From NCBI GenBank assembly GCA_005884925.1, contig VAYU01000023.1, forward strand, positions 62,001 through 126,000: 64,000 bases of DNA, read 5' to 3'. Made by a program: the position numbers and the translations under genes. Below, piece after piece: positions 26,894-62,021 of the stretch (within the stretch, counting starts at the first letter, position 1; every line of letters starts with the position of its first letter). A model generated the notes under the pieces. That model did no database searches, was not told the origin of the DNA, and was given only the letters and a program-made list of their open reading frames with translations. Origin of the DNA: Actinomycetota bacterium. Its GTDB lineage: Bacteria > Actinomycetota > UBA4738 > HRBIN12.

Positions 26894-28303
26894 GTGCGAC
26901 GAACCCTCACCCTCCTCCTCGCCGCCACGCTCATCGCTGCGTATGCGGCGATCGCGGCCCGAGGTGCGGTAATAACGCCCGTCATCCGCACGGCAACGAA
27001 GGCAGGGCACCCGACCCATCCGGTCTGGTATCACGACGACGTCGCCATTCGTATCGGTTCGCGGCTCGTCCTCGCTTGGAACGCGGCCGGCGGCTCGGTC
27101 CGGGCGCGGACCTGGAACCTCGCGAGATCGCGGTGGTCTGCCACGGCGACCACGGTGTCGGGGACGAAGCTGGACTGCCGATGCACCGATTCGACGGGCG
27201 CGAACCCGAACCGTCACGACGTCCCGACGGTGTTCAGCGACCCGGCCGGACGGGTGTACGCGATCTACGGAGGAGGAACGGCCTCTCATACTGGGGACCA
27301 GACCGGACCGTTCTTCCGGGCCGCCGCGACCACGGGCCCACCCAAGACCTGGGGGCCACAGCAACGCCTCTCCATCCCTGGTGCGATGTACGACGTGGAG
27401 GTCGCGCGCGACAACCACGGGGTGAACCATCTGATCGGACAGCAAGGGGACAACGCCAACGGCGCGGGTTCCCTCCTGTACGTCCGCGTCCCTCCGGGGA
27501 CATCTTCGACCCCCGGGGATCCGCGACCCGCTCAGGTCCTGGTGAAAGGCGGGCGGGACCCGAACGCGTGCGCGTGGCAAGCCGCCCCCGGATGCGACAT
27601 CTTCGTGATCGGGAGGTTGGTCTCGGGCCCCGCGGACCTGGCGCAGCCGACGACCCCGACACCGCTTTTCCTCACTTGGGGCTGGACGGAGAAGAACCTC
27701 TCGGGGACATGCGGGGACCCCGCGGGGTTCTGCGACCACGGGCTGTACTTCGCGGAGAGCTTCGACGGAGGAACACACTGGGTGAACGCTGACGCGACGG
27801 CCTCGATCGACATCACCTCCGAACAGATCTCGTACGACGATCCGCGCTTCGTCGTGATCCGCCCCGCGAAGAACGTCGGGTTGTTCAAAGCCATCGCAGC
27901 GACCGGGCACTACCCGGGCACACCGTGGATCGCGTACCAGCCGCGCGCGGACATGGGGACGGGAAAGGTCGACGTGACGAAACGGAAGGGCTCTTCGTGG
28001 GCGGCGCCGACCGTCATCGATCGAAGCCGCCCGTGGAACAACCACCTCGTCTTCAGGGCGTACGCAGACGGGCGGCTCGTACTGTGGTCCGATATCGCCC
28101 AGACCGGTCGCCACGCGAGGGAGCTCGCGCAGTGGACACTCGCGCCGGCGAGAGGGTCCTGGCGGTCCAAGCGGTTGTCCGTCGGGGCGAACTGGTTCCT
28201 GACGGGAAGGCCGGCTGGAGCCTTGGAGGTGTTGGTGTGGCGAGCGCCATGGACGAGCGGCAGGAGCCGGGTCCGGTTCGCGCTCCTCAAAGAGCCGTCG
28301 TGA
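26894..28303 (+). CDS. Secreted BNR_4-type propeller protein, possible polysaccharide lyase-like
   Basis: The GTG at 26894 (GGGAAG seven bases upstream) starts a 469-residue protein with a clear signal peptide (VRRTLTLLLAATLIAAYAAIAA). Blade-like repeats resemble the BNR_4 family: WYHDDVAIRIGSRLVLAWN, RHDVPTVFSDPAGRVYAIYGGG and AESFDGGTHWVNAD. BNR_4 propellers include several polysaccharide lyases (for example ulvan and rhamnose-glucuronate lyases), but others bind only; no lyase residue set was confirmed. It is divergent from the dehydrogenase/epimerase-synthase operon, separated by 204 bases. In alginate clusters a lyase is usual in this setting. I infer a glycan-modifying role. Confidence 0.7.
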   Translation: MRRTLTLLLAATLIAAYAAIAARGAVITPVIRTATKAGHPTHPVWYHDDVAIRIGSRLVLAWNAAGGSVRARTWNLARSRWSATATTVSGTKLDCRCTDSTGANPNRHDVPTVFSDPAGRVYAIYGGGTASHTGDQTGPFFRAAATTGPPKTWGPQQRLSIPGAMYDVEVARDNHGVNHLIGQQGDNANGAGSLLYVRVPPGTSSTPGDPRPAQVLVKGGRDPNACAWQAAPGCDIFVIGRLVSGPADLAQPTTPTPLFLTWGWTEKNLSGTCGDPAGFCDHGLYFAESFDGGTHWVNADATASIDITSEQISYDDPRFVVIRPAKNVGLFKAIAATGHYPGTPWIAYQPRADMGTGKVDVTKRKGSSWAAPTVIDRSRPWNNHLVFRAYADGRLVLWSDIAQTGRHARELAQWTLAPARGSWRSKRLSVGANWFLTGRPAGALEVLVWRAPWTSGRSRVRFALLKEPS

Positions 28304-29193: not shown

Positions 29194-29267
29194 TGCCCCC
29201 GGGAGGAATCGAACCTCCGACACACGGTTTAGGAAACCGATGCTCTTCTCCACTGAGCTACGGGGGC
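29194..29267 (-). tRNA. trnR-CCU: tRNA-Arg (CCU)
   Basis: The strand folds into a 74-base cloverleaf. The acceptor GCCCCCG pairs with CGGGGGC. The D arm is GCTC/GAGC. The anticodon loop TTCCTAA is set in a TCGGT/ACCGT stem and gives anticodon CCU. The T arm GGAGG-TTCGATT-CCTCC is intact. The discriminator is A and no CCA is encoded. It decodes AGG. Confidence 0.95.
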
Positions 29268-37186: not shown

Positions 37187-37304
37187 GCCGCCCGGATAGA
37201 GCCGGATCCGACGGAATGCGGGCCTCATGGCGGAGTGATTCGGTCTTGCCTTGACAGATGCCCTTTGCCGATGGGACTGTTCACGGGTCCCAAGGGGGGG
37301 AACC

Positions 37305-38549
37305 GTGCTCCGCGGCAGCAACCGCCGGCGACTGCTCGCATTGCTCCAAGACCATGGTGCGCTGACGCGGGCCGATCTCGTCCGCCGGTCGGGGATCTCG
37401 CGCGCGACCGTGTCCGGCGTCGTCGCGGCGTTGCTCGACGAGGGATTCATCCACGAGCTGGCACCCACGAGCGGCGCTCGCGACGGGCGGGTCGGACGTC
37501 CGAGCGCGCTCCTGACCCTCGACCCCGCGAGCGGCGCGGCGGTGGGTATCGACATCGACCACAACTGTCTCCGCGTTGTCGTCGCCGACCTGTCCCACAC
37601 GGTTCTCGCCGAAGCCCAGCGCCCGCTCGACATCGACCACGACGCCGACACGGCGATGGCACTCGCCGCCGACCTGATGCACCTGGTCGTCGCGGAGGCG
37701 GGGTTGGAGCCGTCACAGATCCTCGGCGTTGGGATGGGACTGGCCGGCCCACTCGATCACGCGACCGGCCGCCCCAACCCCTCGAGCATCTCGCCCAGCT
37801 GGGTGGGCGTGGACGCGGCTCGAGAGATGCGGCGCCACGTCGGGCACATCGTGCACATCGACAACGACGCGAACCTGGGCGCCCTCGCGGAGTCGATGTG
37901 GGGCGCCGGTCGCGGCGCCAGCGAGGCTGCGTACGTGAAGGTCGACACAGGAGTCGGGGCGGCCTTGATCCTCGGCGGGCAGATCTACCGCGGAGCCGTC
38001 GGGACGGCCGGCGAGATCGGGCACTCGACGATCGCCGAGGACGGGCCCGTGTGTCGGTGCGGCAACCGCGGGTGCCTCGAGCGCTTCGTCGGGACCCCGG
38101 CCCTCCTAGAGAGCCTGCGGGGGAGCCACGGGGACCTGACGGTGCACGACCTGCTCCACCTGGCCGCGGCCGGCGATTCGGGCTGTCGCCGCGTGATCGG
38201 CGACGCGGGGCGGTTGATCGGCGTGCAGGTCGCCAACCTCTGCAACCTCTTGAACCCACGACGGGTGATCATCGGTGGTTCGCTGAGCGCCGCCGGCGAC
38301 ATCCTGCTGGACCCGATCCGCGCGTCGATCGAACGCTGCGCGCTCCCGATGGCCGCGGCGACCGCCGAGGTCGTCGCCGGCGAGCTGGGCGATCGTGCCA
38401 CGGTCCTCGGCGCGCTGAGCCTCGTGTTCCGGCAGGTCGATCCGTTCGAGCTCAAACCGCGGCGAGGTCCCGTCCCGGTCGCCCGGATCCAGCCCGCCGT
38501 CAAGGAGGCGGTCGAAGCGGGACCGTCCAGTCGATCGGGTTCCGTATGA
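37305..38549 (+). CDS. ROK-family transcriptional regulator/sugar kinase-like protein
   Basis: From GTG 37305 (AAGGGGGGG upstream) the protein has 414 residues. An N-terminal winged helix (LLALLQDHGALTRADLVRRSGISRATVSGVVAALL) precedes the ROK fold, with ATP-binding GVGMGLAGPLDHATG, and GEIGHSTI-x-EDGPVCRCGNRGCLE holding the cysteines of the ROK zinc site. Regulators such as XylR/NagC share this layout. The next three genes are a sugar ABC transporter, so it is the probable sugar-responsive repressor of that operon. Confidence 0.9.
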   Translation: MLRGSNRRRLLALLQDHGALTRADLVRRSGISRATVSGVVAALLDEGFIHELAPTSGARDGRVGRPSALLTLDPASGAAVGIDIDHNCLRVVVADLSHTVLAEAQRPLDIDHDADTAMALAADLMHLVVAEAGLEPSQILGVGMGLAGPLDHATGRPNPSSISPSWVGVDAAREMRRHVGHIVHIDNDANLGALAESMWGAGRGASEAAYVKVDTGVGAALILGGQIYRGAVGTAGEIGHSTIAEDGPVCRCGNRGCLERFVGTPALLESLRGSHGDLTVHDLLHLAAAGDSGCRRVIGDAGRLIGVQVANLCNLLNPRRVIIGGSLSAAGDILLDPIRASIERCALPMAAATAEVVAGELGDRATVLGALSLVFRQVDPFELKPRRGPVPVARIQPAVKEAVEAGPSSRSGSV

Positions 38550-38608: not shown

Positions 38609-39841
38609 ATGGTCGAGTTGAGAACACCGCTCAAGACGCTGACGGGGGCCGCTGCCGTCCTGCTGCTGGGGACCGTGCTCGCAGCGTGCAGCTCGTCATC
38701 GACCACGAACACGACGGCGCCGGGGTCCTCGGCGTCCGTGCCGGCGATCGCGGCCGGTGATTTCACGGCCGACTTCTCGGTCATGCAGCAGCTCACCGGG
38801 CTCGCATCGTCGGGGACCGGGTTGATCGGCGTCCTCCTCCCGGACACCACGACGTCGACGCGGTACGTCCAGTACGACGCGCCCTTCCTCAAGAAGGCCT
38901 TCGAGGCCGCAGGCCTCAGCGCCGACCAGTTCAAGGTCGACAACGCCCAGGGCAGCGCCGCGACGATGCAGACGCAGGCCGACGCCGACATCAACGCGGG
39001 CGCCTCAGTCCTGTTGATCGATCCGCTCGACCCGGGCAGTGGCGCCGCGATCGAGACGAAGGCCGAAGCGCAGGGTGTCAAGGTGATCGACTACGATCGC
39101 CTCGTATCCGGCGGCCCCGCAGACCGGTACTACGTGAGCTTCAACAACGTGCAGGTCGGCCAGTTGATCGGGAAGGGCGAGGTGGACTGCATCTCGGCAT
39201 GGAAGGTGACGAGCCCGAACATCCTGATCATGGACGGCGACCCAACCGACAACAACGCGAAGCTGTTCGCGCAGGGCTACAACGGGGTGTTGGCCCCGCA
39301 CTTCAGCGACGGTTCGTACACGAAGGTCGGCGAGCCACCCGGCACGTGGACGCCGGCCGTGACGCAGACCAACTTCGAGCAGCAGTACACCGCGCACCCG
39401 AACATCAACGCCGTGGTGACGCCGAACGATGACAACGCGAACGCCGTGATCTCGGTCCTGCAGAAGGACGGGATCCCGGCGAACACGTTCCCGACCACCG
39501 GCCAGGACGCATCGGTGCCGGGCCTGCAGAACATCCTGAAGGGGTACCAGTGTGGGACCGTCTACAAGCCCGTCTACGCCGAGGCAGAGGCGGCCGCAGC
39601 GCTGGCGCTCTACCTGCGGGCCGGCCAGACGCCTCCCTCGTCGCTGGTGAACTCCACGACGAAGGACAGCGAGATCAACAAGGAGATCGCGTCCGTCTAC
39701 ACGACGCCGGTCTGGGTGACCACGGACAACATGGCGGACACCGTGGTCAAGGACTCCGGCACGACGGGTATCGGGCCGACGGCCTCCGACCTGTGCACCG
39801 GCGGGCTCGCCAGCGCGTGCACGGCGGCCGGCATAAGCTAG
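38609..39841 (+). CDS. Sugar ABC transporter substrate-binding lipoprotein (XylF-like)
   Basis: The 410-residue protein has a lipoprotein signal (LLLGTVLAACSS, lipobox at Cys27) and a type I periplasmic binding fold: TGLIGVLLPDTTTSTRYVQYD, LLIDPLDPGSGAAIETKAEAQGVKVIDYD, VVTPNDDNANAVISVLQKDGI, and TGQDASVPGLQNILKGYQCGTV. This last arrangement is close to xylose- and ribose-binding proteins. It captures a pentose or related sugar for the ATPase and permease that follow. A perfect hairpin lies between this gene and the ATPase gene. Confidence 0.9.
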   Translation: MVELRTPLKTLTGAAAVLLLGTVLAACSSSSTTNTTAPGSSASVPAIAAGDFTADFSVMQQLTGLASSGTGLIGVLLPDTTTSTRYVQYDAPFLKKAFEAAGLSADQFKVDNAQGSAATMQTQADADINAGASVLLIDPLDPGSGAAIETKAEAQGVKVIDYDRLVSGGPADRYYVSFNNVQVGQLIGKGEVDCISAWKVTSPNILIMDGDPTDNNAKLFAQGYNGVLAPHFSDGSYTKVGEPPGTWTPAVTQTNFEQQYTAHPNINAVVTPNDDNANAVISVLQKDGIPANTFPTTGQDASVPGLQNILKGYQCGTVYKPVYAEAEAAAALALYLRAGQTPPSSLVNSTTKDSEINKEIASVYTTPVWVTTDNMADTVVKDSGTTGIGPTASDLCTGGLASACTAAGIS

Positions 39842-39852
39842 TTCGTCGGGTC

Positions 39853-39895
39853 GGGATCGGGCCGCATCCGCGGAACGCGGATGCGGCCCGATCCC
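39853..39895 (+). terminator. Perfect 20-bp hairpin between binding-protein and ATPase genes
   Basis: Bases 39853-39872 and 39876-39895 are exact reverse complements with a 3-base loop (GAA). It starts 12 bases past the stop of the binding-protein gene. There is no U-run, so read-through is expected. In ABC operons such hairpins often protect the binding-protein mRNA 3' end and raise its level above that of the ATPase and permease. Confidence 0.8.
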
Positions 39896-39935: not shown

Positions 39936-40754
39936 GTGATCACCGACGTCGAGTCGGGAACGCCGCCGGCCCCTCCGACCCGGAGCGCCGAGCCGCTCCT
40001 GCGGCTCCGTGGGATCAACAAGAGCTTCGGGGCGGTGCAGGCGCTCGTCGGCGTCGACCTCGACGTGCCGTCCGGACAGGTCACGGCGCTCGCCGGAGAC
40101 AACGGGGCCGGCAAGTCGGTGCTGATCAAGTGCATCGCCGGGATCCACGCTCCCGAGAGCGGTCAGATCTCGTGGGAGGGCAAACCCGTCCACATCAGAT
40201 CGCCCCGTGATGCGGCCGGCCTCGGCATCGAGACCGTGTACCAAGACCTGGCGCTCTGCGACAACCTCGACATCGTCCAGAACATGTTCCTCGGCCGTGA
40301 GCGGTCGCGGCGCTCCACGCTGGACGAGGAAGACATGGAGTCGTCCGCGCGCGACACGCTCGCGCAGCTGAAGGTGACCACCGTCCGATCGATCCGCCAG
40401 CCCGTGGCCTCGCTCTCGGGCGGCCAGCGGCAGTCGGTCGCGATCGCCAAGGCCGTCCTCTGGGACGCGAAGCTCGTGATCATGGACGAGCCGACGGCCG
40501 CCCTCGGTGTGACGCAGACCGCGAACGTGCTCGAGCTGGTCCGCAGGCTGGCCGACCGCGGTCATGCGGTGATCATGGTGTCGCACAACATGAACGACGT
40601 GTTCCAGGTGGCCGACCAGATCGCCGTCCTCTACCTGGGGAAGATGGTCTCGGTCCGGCCGACGGCGGATGTCGATCGTCAGATCGTCGTCGATTTCATG
40701 ACGAGCGGCGTCTCGACGCGCGGCACTGGGTCGCAGCCTCCAGCGAGAAGCTGA
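39936..40754 (+). CDS. Sugar ABC transporter ATPase, single-domain
   Basis: The 272-residue protein has one complete ABC cassette: Walker A GDNGAGKS, Q-loop VYQDLALCDNL, signature LSGGQRQ, Walker B VIMDEPTAAL and switch His in VSHNMND. Xylose/ribose importers usually use a two-cassette ATPase (XylG/RbsA, ~500 residues). This one has a single cassette, so a homodimer must serve, as in some fructose-type systems. GTG start. It is followed by the permease gene 2 bases away. Confidence 0.9.
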   Translation: MITDVESGTPPAPPTRSAEPLLRLRGINKSFGAVQALVGVDLDVPSGQVTALAGDNGAGKSVLIKCIAGIHAPESGQISWEGKPVHIRSPRDAAGLGIETVYQDLALCDNLDIVQNMFLGRERSRRSTLDEEDMESSARDTLAQLKVTTVRSIRQPVASLSGGQRQSVAIAKAVLWDAKLVIMDEPTAALGVTQTANVLELVRRLADRGHAVIMVSHNMNDVFQVADQIAVLYLGKMVSVRPTADVDRQIVVDFMTSGVSTRGTGSQPPARS

Positions 40755-40756
40755 TC

Positions 40757-42070
40757 ATGGCCAAGGTCGACGAACCGACGCCGTCGCCGGAACCGGCTCC
40801 CGAGGCCGAAGAGCTCTCGTCGGAGGCTGCCAGCAGAGCCACGCTGGCGGTCTCGCCGGAGCTCGTCGCCGGTTCCGTTCCCGAGTACCTCCGCGTCTCG
40901 CTCGCGCGGATCCGTGCGGGGGAGACCGGTGTGTTGCCCGTCATCGCGGGGATGCTGCTGGTGTCGATCCTGTTCCGATCCCAGAACTCGCAGTTCCTCA
41001 CGGCCCGGAACCTGGTCGACCTGCTCGTGCAGGCCGCGGTGGTCAGCGTGCTGGCGATGGGTGAGATCTACGCGCTGCTGCTCGGCGAGATCGATCTGTC
41101 GATCGGGTTCGTGAGCGGGATCGGCGGCGTCCTGATGGCGGAGCTGGTCAAGCCCTCCGGGCTCGACTGGCCATGGTGGGCCGCGATCGCGTTGGCTCTG
41201 TTGGTATGCGCGGTGATCGGCGCGTTACAGGGAACGATCATCACGCGGCTCGGGGTGCCGTCCTTCGTGGTCACCCTCGCGGGGTTCCTGTTCTGGCAGG
41301 GCGTCCTGCTCAAGATCCTCGGCAACGGCGGTTCGGTCCTGATCAACGTGAGCGTCATCAACGACATCGCGTCGGGGAACCTGACTCCGATCGCCAGCTG
41401 GGTGGTGATGCTCGTGATCGTCGGGGTGTTCGCGATCATGACCTGGCGGCGCGACGCGCGGCGTCGAACCGCCGGACTCGTGGCGCCGCCGCAGAGCTTC
41501 ACGGCGTTGAAGATCGGGACCGCGCTCGCCGGGGCCGTCGCGATCGTGCTGCTCTGCAACACGAACCGCGGCATCCGCGCACCGATCCGTGGGGTGCCAT
41601 GGGTCGTGATCCTCGTGTTCGGCGTCCTCGCCATATGGACGTTCGTCCTGGGGCGTACTCGCTTCGGCCGGTACATCTACGCGATCGGAGGCAACGCCGA
41701 AGCCGCTCGACGCGCCGGGGTGAACCTCCCCCGGATCCGGACGATCGCGTTCACGCTCTGCTCGTTCACCGCCGGTATCGCGGGGGTGATCTACGCGTCT
41801 CGCCTCCGTTCGGTCTCCACCGCCTTCGAGGGCGGGACGCTCGTGTTGTACGCGGTGGCCGCCGCGGTGATCGGCGGCACGAGCCTGTTCGGGGGACGGG
41901 GGAAAGCGCTGCACGGGCTGTTGGGCGGACTCGTGATCGCGGGGATCGCCAACGGGATGGGGCTCCTGGCGTTCAGCGCCGCCTCGCAGTACATGGTGAC
42001 CGCGCTCGTGTTGCTCGTCGCCGTGACCATCGACGCGGTGGCCCGTCGCGGCCGGGTGGCCCGGACGTGA
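40757..42070 (+). CDS. Sugar ABC transporter permease (XylH-like)
   Basis: The 437-residue protein has an ~75-residue acidic N-terminal extension, then about ten membrane helices. The family region AMGEIYALLLGEIDLSIGFVSGI (xylose-type EAA-like loop LGEIDLSIG) and GNAEAARRAGVNLPRIRT (cytoplasmic coupling loop) are present, with an extended central loop (TWRRDARRRTAGLVAPPQS). It forms the membrane pore of the ROK-controlled sugar importer. The stop overlaps the ATG of the peroxiredoxin gene by one base. Confidence 0.9.
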   Translation: MAKVDEPTPSPEPAPEAEELSSEAASRATLAVSPELVAGSVPEYLRVSLARIRAGETGVLPVIAGMLLVSILFRSQNSQFLTARNLVDLLVQAAVVSVLAMGEIYALLLGEIDLSIGFVSGIGGVLMAELVKPSGLDWPWWAAIALALLVCAVIGALQGTIITRLGVPSFVVTLAGFLFWQGVLLKILGNGGSVLINVSVINDIASGNLTPIASWVVMLVIVGVFAIMTWRRDARRRTAGLVAPPQSFTALKIGTALAGAVAIVLLCNTNRGIRAPIRGVPWVVILVFGVLAIWTFVLGRTRFGRYIYAIGGNAEAARRAGVNLPRIRTIAFTLCSFTAGIAGVIYASRLRSVSTAFEGGTLVLYAVAAAVIGGTSLFGGRGKALHGLLGGLVIAGIANGMGLLAFSAASQYMVTALVLLVAVTIDAVARRGRVART

Positions 42071-42537
42071 TGGTCGAGCTCCAACCGGGCGACCCGGCGC
42101 CCAGCTTCGCGCTCCGGAACCAGCACGGCGACGTCGTTCGGCTGGAGGACTACCGGAGGAAGAAGGTCCTCGTCTACTTCTATCCGGAGGCGGACACGCC
42201 CGGGTGCACGACCCAATCCTGCGACCTCCGGGATCATCGCCAGGATCTGGGAGCGATCGGCGTGGACGTCGTGGGGATCTCGCCCGACGACCCGGACAAG
42301 CAGCTCGCGTTCGACCGGAAGTACGGGTTGGGTTTCCCGCTGCTCGCGGACGAGGACCACGCCGTCGCCGACGCGTGGGGGACCTGGGGGCCGAAGACGC
42401 GAGGAGGCGTGACCGTCGAGGGCATCATCCGGTCGTCCTTCCTGGTGGACGAGCAGGGGAACATCGAGCGGGCGTGGTACGGCGTCACCCCCAAGGACAC
42501 CGTGCCGAACGCGCTCTCGGCCTTGTCGGCCGGGTAG
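42070..42537 (+). CDS. bcp: Peroxiredoxin, BCP/AhpC type thiol peroxidase
   Basis: This 155-residue protein has the BCP peroxidatic motif DTPGCTTQSCDLRD (Cys46) with a second cysteine five residues later (Cys51), the resolving position in some BCPs. PAPSFALRNQHGDVVRLEDY and FPLLADEDHAVADAWG match the family. It reduces hydroperoxides, using thioredoxin or a similar partner. Its start overlaps the permease stop, so it is likely co-transcribed with the sugar importer although the functions are unrelated. Confidence 0.9.
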   Translation: MVELQPGDPAPSFALRNQHGDVVRLEDYRRKKVLVYFYPEADTPGCTTQSCDLRDHRQDLGAIGVDVVGISPDDPDKQLAFDRKYGLGFPLLADEDHAVADAWGTWGPKTRGGVTVEGIIRSSFLVDEQGNIERAWYGVTPKDTVPNALSALSAG

Positions 42538-42549
42538 CCCTCCGGTCAG

Positions 42550-42789
42550 CTAGCGATCGCGGCCCGCGATGCGGTCCGCGATCGCCCGCGCTTCCTCGAG
42601 TTCGGCGCGGTCCACGAAGACGTGGACCGCGCCGAACTCCCAGATCCGGCTGAAGAACCCGGGGAGCTTCACCCACCAGACGATCCCCTCCTTCTCGAGC
42701 GCCTCCGCGATCGCGTCCGCGTGCTCGGGCGTGAACTGCCCCAGGTGGACGGTGCGCACGTCGGGCGGTACGCGTTCGAGTCCCGGCAT
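42550..42789 (-). CDS. Small conserved alpha/beta protein (DUF2007-like)
   Basis: The 79-residue protein begins MPGLERVPPDVRTVHLGQF and has a compact alpha/beta pattern (HADAIAEALEKEGI, WWVKLPG, GAVHVFVDRAELEEARAIADRI). The size and order resemble small ferredoxin-fold domains such as DUF2007; I cannot confirm the family. The ATG at 42789 sits 1 base after the frameshifted winged-helix gene, with GGGGA upstream, so the two are probably co-transcribed. Confidence 0.65.
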   Translation of the reverse strand: MPGLERVPPDVRTVHLGQFTPEHADAIAEALEKEGIVWWVKLPGFFSRIWEFGAVHVFVDRAELEEARAIADRIAGRDR

Positions 42790-46704: not shown

Positions 46705-47433
46705 ATGGAGCGGACGGCGGCGGGCGGACCCACGGAGTCGGCCGCCGACGCCGTCCGCGTGCTCGTGGTGGACGACGAACCCGCGATCGCCGATCTGGTC
46801 GGCACGGCCCTCCGGTACGAAGGGTTCGACGTCGCGACCGCGGGGAGCGGTCGCGACGTCCTCACGATGGTCGAGTCGTTCCGGCCCGAGCTGATCGTGC
46901 TGGACATCATGCTGCCGGACCTCGACGGCTTCGAGGTGCAGCGCCGCCTCGCCGATCGCGGCCGGCGGATCCCCGTGCTGTTCCTCACGGCGCGTGACGC
47001 GACCGAGGACAAGGTTCGCGGGCTCACGATCGGAGGCGACGACTACGTCACGAAGCCATTCAGCCTGGAGGAATTGATCGCGCGGATCCGGGCGGTGCTA
47101 CGACGTGCGGGTCACGGCGAGGAGTCGGCCGGTCGGCTTCGATTCGAAGACCTCGAGATGGACGAGGACACGCACGAGGTCTGGCGCGCGAGAGGTCCGG
47201 TCGAGCTCACGCCCACCGAGTTCAACCTGCTTCGGTTCATGCTGGTCAACCCGCGACGCGTGCTGTCCAAGGAACAGATCCTCGACCACGTCTGGCATTA
47301 CGATTTCGGCGGCGACGCGTCGATCGTCGAGACGTACATCAGCTATCTGCGCAAGAAGGTGGATGGGACCGAACCGCACCTTATCCACACGGTGCGCGGG
47401 GTCGGCTACGCGCTCCGGTTGCCCAAGGAGTGA
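46705..47433 (+). CDS. OmpR/PhoB-family response regulator
   Basis: The protein has 242 residues. The receiver has VLVVDDEPAIADLVG, the phospho-acceptor in LIVLDIMLPDLDGFE, LTARDA and the conserved Lys in VTKPFSLEEL. The C-terminal winged helix ends LTPTEFNLLRFMLVNPRRVLSKEQILDHVW and VETYISYLRKKVDG. I choose ATG 46705, which has GAGGAG nine bases before. It overlaps the start of the histidine kinase (GTGA), so the pair is coupled. Regulon not inferable. Confidence 0.93.
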   Translation: MERTAAGGPTESAADAVRVLVVDDEPAIADLVGTALRYEGFDVATAGSGRDVLTMVESFRPELIVLDIMLPDLDGFEVQRRLADRGRRIPVLFLTARDATEDKVRGLTIGGDDYVTKPFSLEELIARIRAVLRRAGHGEESAGRLRFEDLEMDEDTHEVWRARGPVELTPTEFNLLRFMLVNPRRVLSKEQILDHVWHYDFGGDASIVETYISYLRKKVDGTEPHLIHTVRGVGYALRLPKE

Positions 47434-48932
47434 GGATGTCCCTCCGGGCGCGGTTGTTGATCGTGACGGTCGTGCTCGTCGCGTCCGGCCTCCTCGTGGC
47501 GAACCTCGCGACCTATCACTACCTGTCTGGGTTCCTGCTGCGGCGGGTGGATCAGCAACTCGTGGCCGCGGTCCCGGGCGCCAGATTCGCATTTGCCCAA
47601 CCGCCGGGCGACCAAGGTCCGGGCGGTATCCCCGGAGTCGCGTTCGGAACCTACGTCGCGGCCCTTGACGGGTCGGGAAAGACGATCGCCGACCGGTTCC
47701 TCGGAGCAGCCGGTTCTCCTCCTAGCCTGCCTGCCGAGCTCCCCATGTGGTCTCCGGATGATTCCGCGCCGATCACCGTCCGCTCGGTCGACGGCTCACT
47801 TCGCTATCGGGTGCTCGCGCATGACGACCAGGTCATCCAGAACGGGATACCCACGACCGTCACCTTCGTCGTCGCGATCCCGTTGACCGAGGTACATGTG
47901 ACGCTCCGGCATCTGATGGGGGTTGAGTTCCTCGTGAGCGCGATCGTGCTCCTCATCGTCGCCGGGCTCGCCCTGTGGCTCGTCCGGGTCGGCATGCAGC
48001 CGCTCGAGGGGATGGGCAGGACCGCGGACGCGATCGCGGCGGGCGATCTCACGCGCCGGGTGGAACCGGCCGACGAGCGGACCGAGGTCGGGCGCCTCGG
48101 GATCGCCCTCAACACGATGCTCACGCGCATCGAAGCCGCCTTCGAGCAACGGCGTCGCTCCGAGGAGCGTCTCCGCCGGTTCGTCGCCGACGCCTCGCAC
48201 GAGCTGCGCACGCCCCTGACGTCGATCCGCGGGTACGCGGAGCTGTTCCGGCGCGGCGCCGACACGCGCCCCGAAGATCTGGCGAAGTCCATGTCCAACA
48301 TCGAGTCCGAGGCGTCACGGATGGGCGTGCTCGTCGACGACCTGCTGTTGCTCGCCCGGCTGGATCAGGGCCGCCCGCTTGAGCGCGAACCGCTCGATCT
48401 CGCCGGCGTTGCGCGCGACGCCGTCGAGAGCGCGCGGGCGATCGAGCCGGATCGGCCGATCGAGCTCGTCGCCGACGATCCGGTCCGGATCGTCGGCGAC
48501 GCCCCCCGCCTGCGACAGGTGATCGACAACCTGCTCGATAACGCCCGCGTGCACGCACCCGGATCCCCCGTTCGCGTGGAGGTCTCGCTCCATGGTGAGG
48601 AGGCCCTGCTCCGGATCGGCGACCGGGGGCCTGGACTCGATCCCGAGGTCGAGGGGCGGATCTTCGAACGGTTCACGCGCGGTGACCCATCGCGATCGCG
48701 CGGGACCGGTGGCGTTGGCCTCGGCCTTTCGATCGTTCAGGCGATCGTAGCGGCACACGGCGGAGAGGTGACGGCCACCTCCGGCGAGGAGGGCGGAACG
48801 GTCTTCGACGTTCGGCTCCCGGTCGGCGGCCCGCCCGAGGCTCCGACCCGCCCGGATCAGCCGGTCCCGATGGACGAAGAACCTGTGTTCGGCAGCGGTG
48901 ACCAGACTTCGTCGGCACGGGCGATCGAGTGA
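47430..48932 (+). CDS. Sensor histidine kinase (HAMP, HisKA, HATPase_c)
   Basis: The 500-residue protein has two membrane helices (near 8-28 and 164-186) flanking a ~135-residue extracellular sensor domain. After HAMP comes the H-box FVADASHELRTPLTSIRGYAE (His257), then N-box VIDNLLDNARVHAP, G1 IGDRGPGLD and G2 GTGGVGLGLSI. It phosphorylates itself and then the adjacent OmpR-type regulator. The signal is unknown. The C-terminal tail after residue ~470 is Pro-rich. Neighbouring SHOCT and YceI genes suggest an envelope or membrane cue. Confidence 0.93.
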   Translation: MRMSLRARLLIVTVVLVASGLLVANLATYHYLSGFLLRRVDQQLVAAVPGARFAFAQPPGDQGPGGIPGVAFGTYVAALDGSGKTIADRFLGAAGSPPSLPAELPMWSPDDSAPITVRSVDGSLRYRVLAHDDQVIQNGIPTTVTFVVAIPLTEVHVTLRHLMGVEFLVSAIVLLIVAGLALWLVRVGMQPLEGMGRTADAIAAGDLTRRVEPADERTEVGRLGIALNTMLTRIEAAFEQRRRSEERLRRFVADASHELRTPLTSIRGYAELFRRGADTRPEDLAKSMSNIESEASRMGVLVDDLLLLARLDQGRPLEREPLDLAGVARDAVESARAIEPDRPIELVADDPVRIVGDAPRLRQVIDNLLDNARVHAPGSPVRVEVSLHGEEALLRIGDRGPGLDPEVEGRIFERFTRGDPSRSRGTGGVGLGLSIVQAIVAAHGGEVTATSGEEGGTVFDVRLPVGGPPEAPTRPDQPVPMDEEPVFGSGDQTSSARAIE

Positions 48933-56100: not shown

Positions 56101-57405
56101 TCAGGCCGGGCCGTCCGCTGCGCCCGGGATCCGCGCCCCCGCCAGGAGGCGCACGATCGCGTCCTCGATGGGCTCGGCCTCGCACGACCCGTACCCGGCG
56201 GTGAGGATCGAGAACGCCGCGATCGTGCCTGAGGCCGTCCGGACGTACCCCGACAGTGCCGACGCCGGCCGGACGAAGAGCGTCCCGGTCTTCGCGCGCA
56301 CCCTGAGTCCGACCAGCCGGTCCGTGAGCGTTCCCTGCCCCGGCGTGGGGAGCGACCGGACGAAGACCGCACGCCAGGGCGCCCGGCGGGCGTCGAGGAG
56401 CAAGGTAACCATGCCCAGGGGGCTCGTCCGATCCTGATCGGACAGCCCCGACCCGTCTCGGACGCTCGCGCGCACGTGCCATCCGCGCGCCCACGCGCGG
56501 ATGGCACGTGCGCCCGCCGCGGTGGAGCCCCTGCCCTCGACCCGCGCGCCCAGCGCCTTCGTCAGCATCTCGGCGATGAAGTTGACCGAGTCGTGGTTCT
56601 GGCTGTGCACGAGCGAAGCGAGCGGAGCCGAGCGGATCCACGCCAGCCGTCGCAGGTGCTCGGGCGCGGGCCCGGCGAGCGCACCGCCGCGTATCCGGAC
56701 GCCGAGCGCGACCAGACCGGCACGGAGCGCCGAGGCGGCGTCGCGCTCGGGGGAGCCGGCGCCGCGGTTGCCGTCGATCGCGAGCGCGGTGGGACGGGTC
56801 ACGTAGCTGCGTGAGATCCCGGCCAGCCAACCGGGCGCCCACCAACCGCGGTCGAACGCCGAGGTGTCGCCCTCGATCGAGCCGGTGATCCGCCGGATCC
56901 CGAGCGCGTGAAGCCGCGCGGCGAGCGTGGCGAGCCGCGCGGCGGTGAGCCCGGGATCACCGGCGCCGATCAGCCAGAGGTTGCCCCTGAGTCGGCCGCC
57001 GCGGACGCGTGCGTCCGCGGCGGCCACGGTCGGGAACCGGTGACGCGCTCCGAACACGTCGAGCGCCGTCATCGAGGTGAGGATCTTCTCGTTCGACGCC
57101 AGGACGCGGGGAGTTCGTCCACGATGGAGGTAGATGATCCGTCCACGGACCCCGACCGCCACGGCGACGTCCCGCCCCGCCACGACGCCATCGATCGCGC
57201 GGGTCCACGACGCATCCGTGAGCAGGATCCGCGGTCGTGGAGGCGTCGGGCCCGCGGATCCCGGGGACGCGGCGGCCGACGATCCGAGGGCGGCTCCGGA
57301 GGGCGGGACGAGGGTCGGATGCCCGGACGGCGGAGGGTGCGCCACGGCCGTGCAGGCAACGAGCATCAAGGCGGCGCCGCTCCGCCACGCAGGGATACGA
57401 CCCAT
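56101..57405 (-). CDS. dacB: D-alanyl-D-alanine carboxypeptidase, peptidase S13 (DacB) family, lipoprotein
   Basis: The 434-residue protein has a lipoprotein signal (ALMLVAC, lipobox at Cys18), then a Ser/Pro linker. Penicillin-binding motifs appear in order: SNEK (Ser104-Lys107), SQN (268-270) and KTG (372-374). NLWLIGAGDPGLT and AIDGNRG are S13 landmarks. The enzyme trims peptidoglycan stem peptides or cleaves crosslinks outside the membrane. It is divergent from the next membrane gene, with 27 bases between starts, so the promoters overlap. It is convergent with the exporter permease. Confidence 0.9.
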   Translation of the reverse strand: MGRIPAWRSGAALMLVACTAVAHPPPSGHPTLVPPSGAALGSSAAASPGSAGPTPPRPRILLTDASWTRAIDGVVAGRDVAVAVGVRGRIIYLHRGRTPRVLASNEKILTSMTALDVFGARHRFPTVAAADARVRGGRLRGNLWLIGAGDPGLTAARLATLAARLHALGIRRITGSIEGDTSAFDRGWWAPGWLAGISRSYVTRPTALAIDGNRGAGSPERDAASALRAGLVALGVRIRGGALAGPAPEHLRRLAWIRSAPLASLVHSQNHDSVNFIAEMLTKALGARVEGRGSTAAGARAIRAWARGWHVRASVRDGSGLSDQDRTSPLGMVTLLLDARRAPWRAVFVRSLPTPGQGTLTDRLVGLRVRAKTGTLFVRPASALSGYVRTASGTIAAFSILTAGYGSCEAEPIEDAIVRLLAGARIPGAADGPA

Positions 57406-61061: not shown

Positions 61062-62021
61062 ATGCAGATCCTGATCACGATCGCGGTGCTCGCCGTGGTC
61101 ATCGGCGTTGTCTTCCTCGTTGGGTCGCGGCAACGAGGGGGCACCACGAGCACGAGGGGCGTGCGGCCGCGGCCTTCGGGCGTGCGGCCGCGGCCTTCGG
61201 CCGCGGCCGCACGCCGCAAGCCCGTGAAGAAGTCATCATCCTTCCAACAGGCCCCGGCCTGGCTCCGGCGTCTGCCGATCCTGCTGCTGATTGGCGCGGT
61301 CGTCGCCCTGGGTGTTGCGCTCGCGCAGTTCCGTGTGTCGCGAACCGCGAAGCCGCCAACCGTTGCGCTCGTCCTCGACGTCTCGCTGTCGATGAACGCC
61401 ACCGATGTGCAGCCGAGCCGCCTTGCGGCTGCCCAGCAGGCGGCCGAGACGCTGGTGGCGCAGCTCCCCGAGTCGTTCCGCGTCGGGCTCGTGACCTTCG
61501 CGGACAAGGCGACGGTCCTCGTTGCCCCCACGGTCGATCACGAGAAGGTCGGCACGGCGCTGGACCACCCGCAGCAGGGTCGCGGCACGGTGATCGGGGA
61601 CGGTCTGTCCGCGACGCTCGACATGATCCAGACGCAGTGGACGGCGCAGGGCACGAGCGCGGCGGTGGCCGTGCTGCTCTCCGACGGCCGCGACACCGGG
61701 AGCCAGATCCAGCCGCTCGACGCCGTCGCGCGCGCCGCGTCCATCGGTGTGCCCGTGTACACGGTGGTGTTGGGCAAGACGACGGGGCCCGGCGCCGCGG
61801 ACGAGGAGCTGTTGTCGCGGATCGCGAGCGCCACCGGTGCGCAGACGTCGACGGCCGGGTCCGCCCAAGCCCTGACGACGATCTATCAGGATCTAGGAAC
61901 GCAGCTTTCCACGCAGTTGCAGATCAGCAGCTCCGCGCAGCTCTTCGTGATCGTCGCGGTCCTGCTGGCGATGGCCGCCGCCGTGATCGTGATCGTCCTG
62001 TCGCAGCGGCGTCCGTACTGA
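61062..62021 (+). CDS. Membrane-anchored VWA-domain protein (BatA-like)
   Basis: The 319-residue protein has an N-terminal membrane helix (LITIAVLAVVIGVVFLV), a basic linker with a 7-residue repeat (GVRPRPS twice), a second hydrophobic segment (LPILLLIGAVVALGVALAQF), and a von Willebrand A domain with the MIDAS start DVSLSMNATD and LLSDGRDTG. A final helix ends at SSAQLFVIVAVLLAMAAAV. BatA/BatB-type VWA proteins work with MoxR ATPases; none is adjacent. Convergent with the YbaK gene, 4 bases apart. Confidence 0.85.
   Translation: MQILITIAVLAVVIGVVFLVGSRQRGGTTSTRGVRPRPSGVRPRPSAAAARRKPVKKSSSFQQAPAWLRRLPILLLIGAVVALGVALAQFRVSRTAKPPTVALVLDVSLSMNATDVQPSRLAAAQQAAETLVAQLPESFRVGLVTFADKATVLVAPTVDHEKVGTALDHPQQGRGTVIGDGLSATLDMIQTQWTAQGTSAAVAVLLSDGRDTGSQIQPLDAVARAASIGVPVYTVVLGKTTGPGAADEELLSRIASATGAQTSTAGSAQALTTIYQDLGTQLSTQLQISSSAQLFVIVAVLLAMAAAVIVIVLSQRRPY
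61159..61214. repeat. Tandem 21-bp repeat running into a perfect 16-bp palindrome
   Basis: Two exact 21-base units lie at 61159-61179 and 61180-61200; they encode the GVRPRPS repeat of the VWA protein. Within the second copy, bases 61180-61195 pair exactly with 61199-61214 (loop TTC). The DNA is highly GC-rich and could pause polymerases or cause errors. Confidence 0.8.

Follow-up and report, generated by a model that had tools for sequence, protein, structure and literature searches.

In Escherichia coli, malEFG and four more importer operons have been found to protect one particular gene by means of a 3' barrier, and the stabilised gene is invariably that of the substrate-binding protein (SBP) (PMC5927463). 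In Clostridia, SBP genes are followed by leaky internal terminators with long GC stems and low U content (PMC9045158). For the selective RNA processing and stabilization operons, 3' stem-loop stability is proposed to set stoichiometry within the operon (PMC8219983, PMC10311766). Here, we describe a perfect 20-bp hairpin located between an SBP gene and the ABC ATPase gene that follows it, in a 64-kb window (the whole stretch of DNA analysed, 64,000 nucleotides) from an incomplete draft genome of 2.7 Mb in 112 contigs with ~68% GC. Judging from its sequence and its counterparts in relatives, this intercistronic RNA hairpin probably uncouples expression of the SBP from that of the ATPase and permease within one operon.

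Gene cluster and hairpin

The hairpin lies within a compact sugar-transporter cluster, the components of which are as follows:
37251-38549, + strand: ROK-family regulator gene, upstream of the transporter genes (Pfam PF00480, E 4.9e-53)
38609-39841, + strand: SBP gene, Peripla_BP_4, sugar type, first of the transporter cluster (Pfam PF13407, E 6.7e-44)
39853-39895, + strand: perfect 20-bp hairpin with a GAA loop (stem scan and folding)
39936-40754, + strand: ABC ATPase gene with one nucleotide-binding domain (Pfam PF00005, E 2.8e-30)
40757-42070, + strand: sugar ABC permease gene, BPD_transp_2 (Pfam PF02653, E 1.1e-26)

All four genes share the + strand, with the order SBP-hairpin-ATPase-permease, and the upstream ROK gene likely encodes a local regulator. 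The match of the SBP to xylF/ChvE-like proteins fell below the cut-off. The ATPase would start at the GTG at 39936, which is preceded by a purine-rich stretch. At the far end of the cluster, a peroxiredoxin-like gene (42070-42537; Bcp type, assigned by eye) overlaps the permease stop and may share the operon.

The hairpin itself, GGGATCGGGCCGCATCCGCG-GAA-CGCGGATGCGGCCCGATCCC, is formed by arms at 39853-39872 and 39876-39895 around a GAA loop at 39873-39875, and 20 of 20 positions form Watson-Crick pairs. The SBP stop codon, TAG, occupies 39839-39841, so that 11 nt separate it from the stem, which begins at the 12th nucleotide; a further 40 nt lead from the end of the stem to the ATPase start. 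The 10 nt immediately 3' of the stem read CGCTCCAGCC and contain no U-run. The preliminary description, made from the letters and open reading frames, had reported exactly this element: a perfect 20-bp stem with a GAA loop, 12 bases past the stop between a binding-protein gene and an ABC ATPase gene, with no U-run. The pairing, the coordinates, the Pfam assignments and the tail agree with it on each point.

Folded alone, the hairpin reaches -45.7 kcal/mol (z -8.4), with none of the shuffled sequences equally good, and in 101 nt of context the fold retains a z of -5.4. When the 216-kb contig was simulated 10 times with an order-3 Markov model, the longest stem never exceeded 14 bp. A back-of-envelope estimate from base composition predicts ~6e-6 fully paired 20-bp hairpins (loop length, 3-10 nt) in 64 kb.

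Several known identities were considered and rejected for this element. A canonical intrinsic (Rho-independent) terminator would carry a U-rich tract after the stem, which is absent here, and the terminator scan did not list the hairpin. At the gathering score, Rfam families matched the window only at a tRNA (29194-29267), with none at the hairpin, which argues against a known RNA family such as a riboswitch or attenuator. A REP/BIME element of the malE-malF type, which would belong to a repeated palindrome family, is likewise rejected: a search of the hairpin's own genome for a second copy returned only the hairpin itself.

Proposed mechanism

The SBP gene, hairpin, ATPase gene and permease gene would be co-transcribed, with the promoter lying ahead of the SBP gene. 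After cleavage of the downstream part of the transcript, the GC-rich stem could block 3'-to-5' exonucleases, so that a stable SBP mRNA remains; alternatively, the stem could make some polymerases terminate. The two effects may act together, and with either one the SBP mRNA would exceed the transporter mRNA. Within this uncoupling explanation, we rank the role of 3' stabiliser first, as the somewhat better bet, because the stem stands without a U-tract; leaky, U-poor termination comes second, as a serious possibility that falls short of even chances.

Structure at the SBP-ATPase junction in relatives

A scan of named genomes for the SBP recovered 80 relatives from Actinomycetota, Chloroflexi, Dormibacterota, Rhodobacterales and other groups, a distribution that may reflect horizontal transfer; the 79 with a readable stop codon were used. 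For each, we took the best perfect stem in the 120 nt after the SBP stop, with a threshold of at least 10 bp. Such stems were present in 28/79 relatives (35%) as against 14/1580 random windows (0.9%), and at lower frequency after the ATPase (4/68, 5.9%) and the permease (5/65, 7.7%); upstream of the SBP gene the figure was 0%. Fisher tests gave p values of 2e-29 against random windows, 1e-5 against the ATPase and 6e-5 against the permease, to be read with the caveat that related loci are not independent; after dereplication, 20/56 relatives carried a perfect stem after the SBP stop. When imperfect stems were allowed, the first 100 nt past the SBP stop had a median fold z of -3.07 across the 79 relatives, and 72% fell below z -2, compared with 22% of the stretches following the ATPase, 23% of those following the permease and 7% of random windows. 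The remaining 28% of relatives lack strong structure after the SBP stop.

The stems of different relatives are unrelated in sequence, and usually only 0-2 T residues occur in the 8 nt that follow them. As read from these sequences, what is kept at the SBP junction is structure and place, not sequence. Start-codon assignments for the ATPase genes are not secure, and up to half of the perfect-stem relatives may have a hairpin that enters the first ATPase codons, an overlap that would suit translational effects too. In two Streptosporangiaceae loci (L137, 6103-6139; L141, 4925-4961), the codons for the first conserved ATPase residues, LLRLRG, seem to lie in the 3' arm of the junction hairpin, an arrangement that would suit translational control.

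Other SBP genes and the sister species

The same genome carries perfect, U-poor hairpins after the stop codon in 4 of 15 checkable SBP genes belonging to several families, the studied one included. Their stems measure 13, 16, 20 and 20 bp, begin 2-35 nt past the stop and are not followed by U-tracts. The three further examples are:
L263, contig C67: 16-bp hairpin after an SBP gene
L271, contig C48: 13-bp hairpin after an SBP gene
L272, contig C66: 20-bp hairpin after an SBP gene

A junction-specific role of the hairpin is likely on these comparative grounds.

In the sister species G002, of the same genus, a hairpin occupies the same place with 18/20 pairs (-35 kcal/mol, z -5.5). It differs by two changes, one per arm, each of which breaks one pair and neither of which is compensatory, and its flanks diverge at a similar rate. 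The structure is thus kept in the aligned sequence of G002 without visible pair-by-pair compensation. A search of G001, the remaining genus member and an 84%-complete draft, found no match to the SBP.

A genus-wide excess of perfect hairpins

Six further perfect hairpins, with stems of 14-20 bp, are present in the 64-kb window, each within predicted coding sequence (42598-42639, 46828-46860, 48467-48501, 56470-56513, 56994-57025 and 61179-61215), and more occur in loci L016-L035. The description of the hairpin as far better than random therefore holds for its length and stability, as the Markov simulations and z score indicate, but it is no proof of function by itself. Across the 216-kb contig, we counted 36 perfect hairpins with stems of 12 bp or longer where ~1 is expected, and 26 of them lie inside predicted genes. 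Samples of three genomes of the genus yielded 60 intragenic perfect hairpins with stems of 13 bp or longer, or ~10 per 100 kb coding. The remainder of the family had 7 in ~0.43 Mb (1.6 per 100 kb), and the named relatives had 1.4 per 100 kb, all densities referring to sampled genome stretches rather than whole genomes and to genes called by our own script. Among intergenic hairpins of the genus, 14/20 lie within 45 nt past stop codons; an enrichment of perfect inverted repeats past bacterial stop codons has been described (PMC13155455).

The coding hairpins sit in conserved domains (e.g., response regulator, S13 peptidase and carbon-nitrogen hydrolase) and recur at matching positions in sister genomes that were assembled independently. 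Their loops are mostly 3-4 nt, 36/60 are in the register where codons face reverse-complement codons, and they are commonest in the first fifth of genes (21/60). Long coding palindromes are also known from nematomorph mitochondria (PMC6649704). Two of the coding hairpins, at 27019-27055 (L017) and 175178-175216 (L022) on contig C102 of G000, each differ from their G001 counterparts (L238 and L242) at two base pairs, where both partners have changed and pairing is kept. These two-sided changes are consistent with the footprint expected of template switching (PMC8794818), but also with selection for pairing. Third-position divergence in the coding-hairpin arms was reduced (8% vs 26% against G002; 13.5% vs 21% against G001); we rejected this reduction as proof of constraint, since selecting hairpins for perfection in a single genome in itself conceals roughly half of the changes.

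The coding excess is perhaps caused by replication template switching. More broadly, we entertain, with considerable doubt, the idea that an unusually active process in this genus creates or maintains perfect hairpins of 13-22 bp genome-wide, mostly in conserved coding domains, through replication template switching or selection for mRNA structure, and that the SBP hairpin would be one product co-opted as a transporter-ratio element. A genus with a several-fold excess of coding hairpins would offer a natural case for how template switching makes and keeps hairpins.

Weighing the explanations

The genus-wide excess bears directly on whether the junction hairpin has a function at all. It might be a by-product of the same mutational process that made the coding hairpins, such as a template switch during replication between inverted sequences that lie close together, with its intergenic place due to chance. 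Template switching is known to produce perfect hairpins (PMC8794818), the genus has, per 100 kb coding, ~10 perfect hairpins with stems of 13 bp or longer where relatives have 1-2, the hairpin excess is far above Markov expectation, intergenic hairpin density is likewise above that in the rest of the family, and compensatory changes relative to the sister species are lacking. However, junction structure is ~40-fold more frequent than in random windows among genomes of other phyla that have no coding excess, and the intergenic hairpins of the genus cluster just past stop codons. Moreover, conversion of a quasipalindrome in a single event is unsupported, as the two differences from the sister fall in separate arms and one event fails to explain the perfect state. 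We therefore consider a functionless by-product unlikely. Part of the hairpin's perfection could nevertheless be mutational, given that the coding hairpins of the genus cannot have a transporter-ratio role. Perfection is accordingly poor evidence of function here, while the hairpin's place is good evidence.

Still less probable is a strong terminator, by which the SBP gene would form its own transcription unit with the hairpin as its end, and a separate promoter would drive the ATPase and permease genes. A very stable GC-rich stem 12 nt past the stop would suit such an arrangement, and U-poor stems terminate to varying extents in Clostridia (PMC9045158), yet the U-tract is missing, a mere 40 nt remain between the stem and the ATPase start, and the structure in relatives is weaker after the permease, which is the likelier operon end. 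A scan of the region found no promoter-like site, though for this host such a scan is a weak test. We give very little credence to the palindrome being a DNA operator bound by a regulator dimer, for instance the product of the upstream ROK gene. Its perfect dyad symmetry and the ROK regulator gene adjoining the cluster are what one would expect of an operator; against it, the region upstream of the SBP gene shares only short 7-8-mers with the palindrome, the genome holds no second copy, and relatives have stems of unrelated sequence at the same place.

Uncoupling of SBP from transporter expression remains the preferred explanation. The preliminary description had likewise proposed an mRNA-stabilising or partial-termination element setting a high ratio of binding protein to transporter. 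Support for that role is partial: it fits the gene order, the junction structure in distant relatives, the three further SBP genes and published precedents (PMC5927463, PMC9045158), but a case built on perfect pairing alone is weak, given how many perfect hairpins the genus carries inside coding genes.

Comparison with known systems

Its place directly 3' of an SBP gene, its stability beyond chance and the presence of structure in related operons align the hairpin with SBP-downstream stoichiometry hairpins. It resembles a canonical intrinsic terminator in being a GC-rich hairpin close to a stop codon, and differs from one in having no U-tract and in lying between genes of one cluster rather than at the cluster end. 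The malE-malF element consists of repeated REP sequences, whereas the hairpin described here is unique in its genome. Like the protective 3' elements of E. coli importer operons, malE-malF among them, it places a stable RNA structure directly past the SBP gene and before the other transporter genes (PMC5927463). With the internal terminators of Clostridia it shares the same place, the same kind of operon, a single hairpin, a long GC stem and few U residues after it; the two are phylogenetically remote, and here the stem is longer, fully paired (20 bp) and has no distinct U-tract (PMC9045158). Differential decay was measured for malE-malF (PMC5927463) and activity for the clostridial terminators (PMC9045158). 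Selective RNA processing and stabilization operons are similar in having a 3' stem-loop whose stability is proposed to set stoichiometry, and differ in that they are described for Clostridium-type operons, while the present locus has no known processing site (PMC8219983, PMC10311766). Collectively, these comparisons would extend the transporter-stoichiometry device known from E. coli and Clostridia to high-GC members of several phyla and to hairpins without U-tracts, and point to an SBP-junction hairpin whose place is conserved while its sequence is free.
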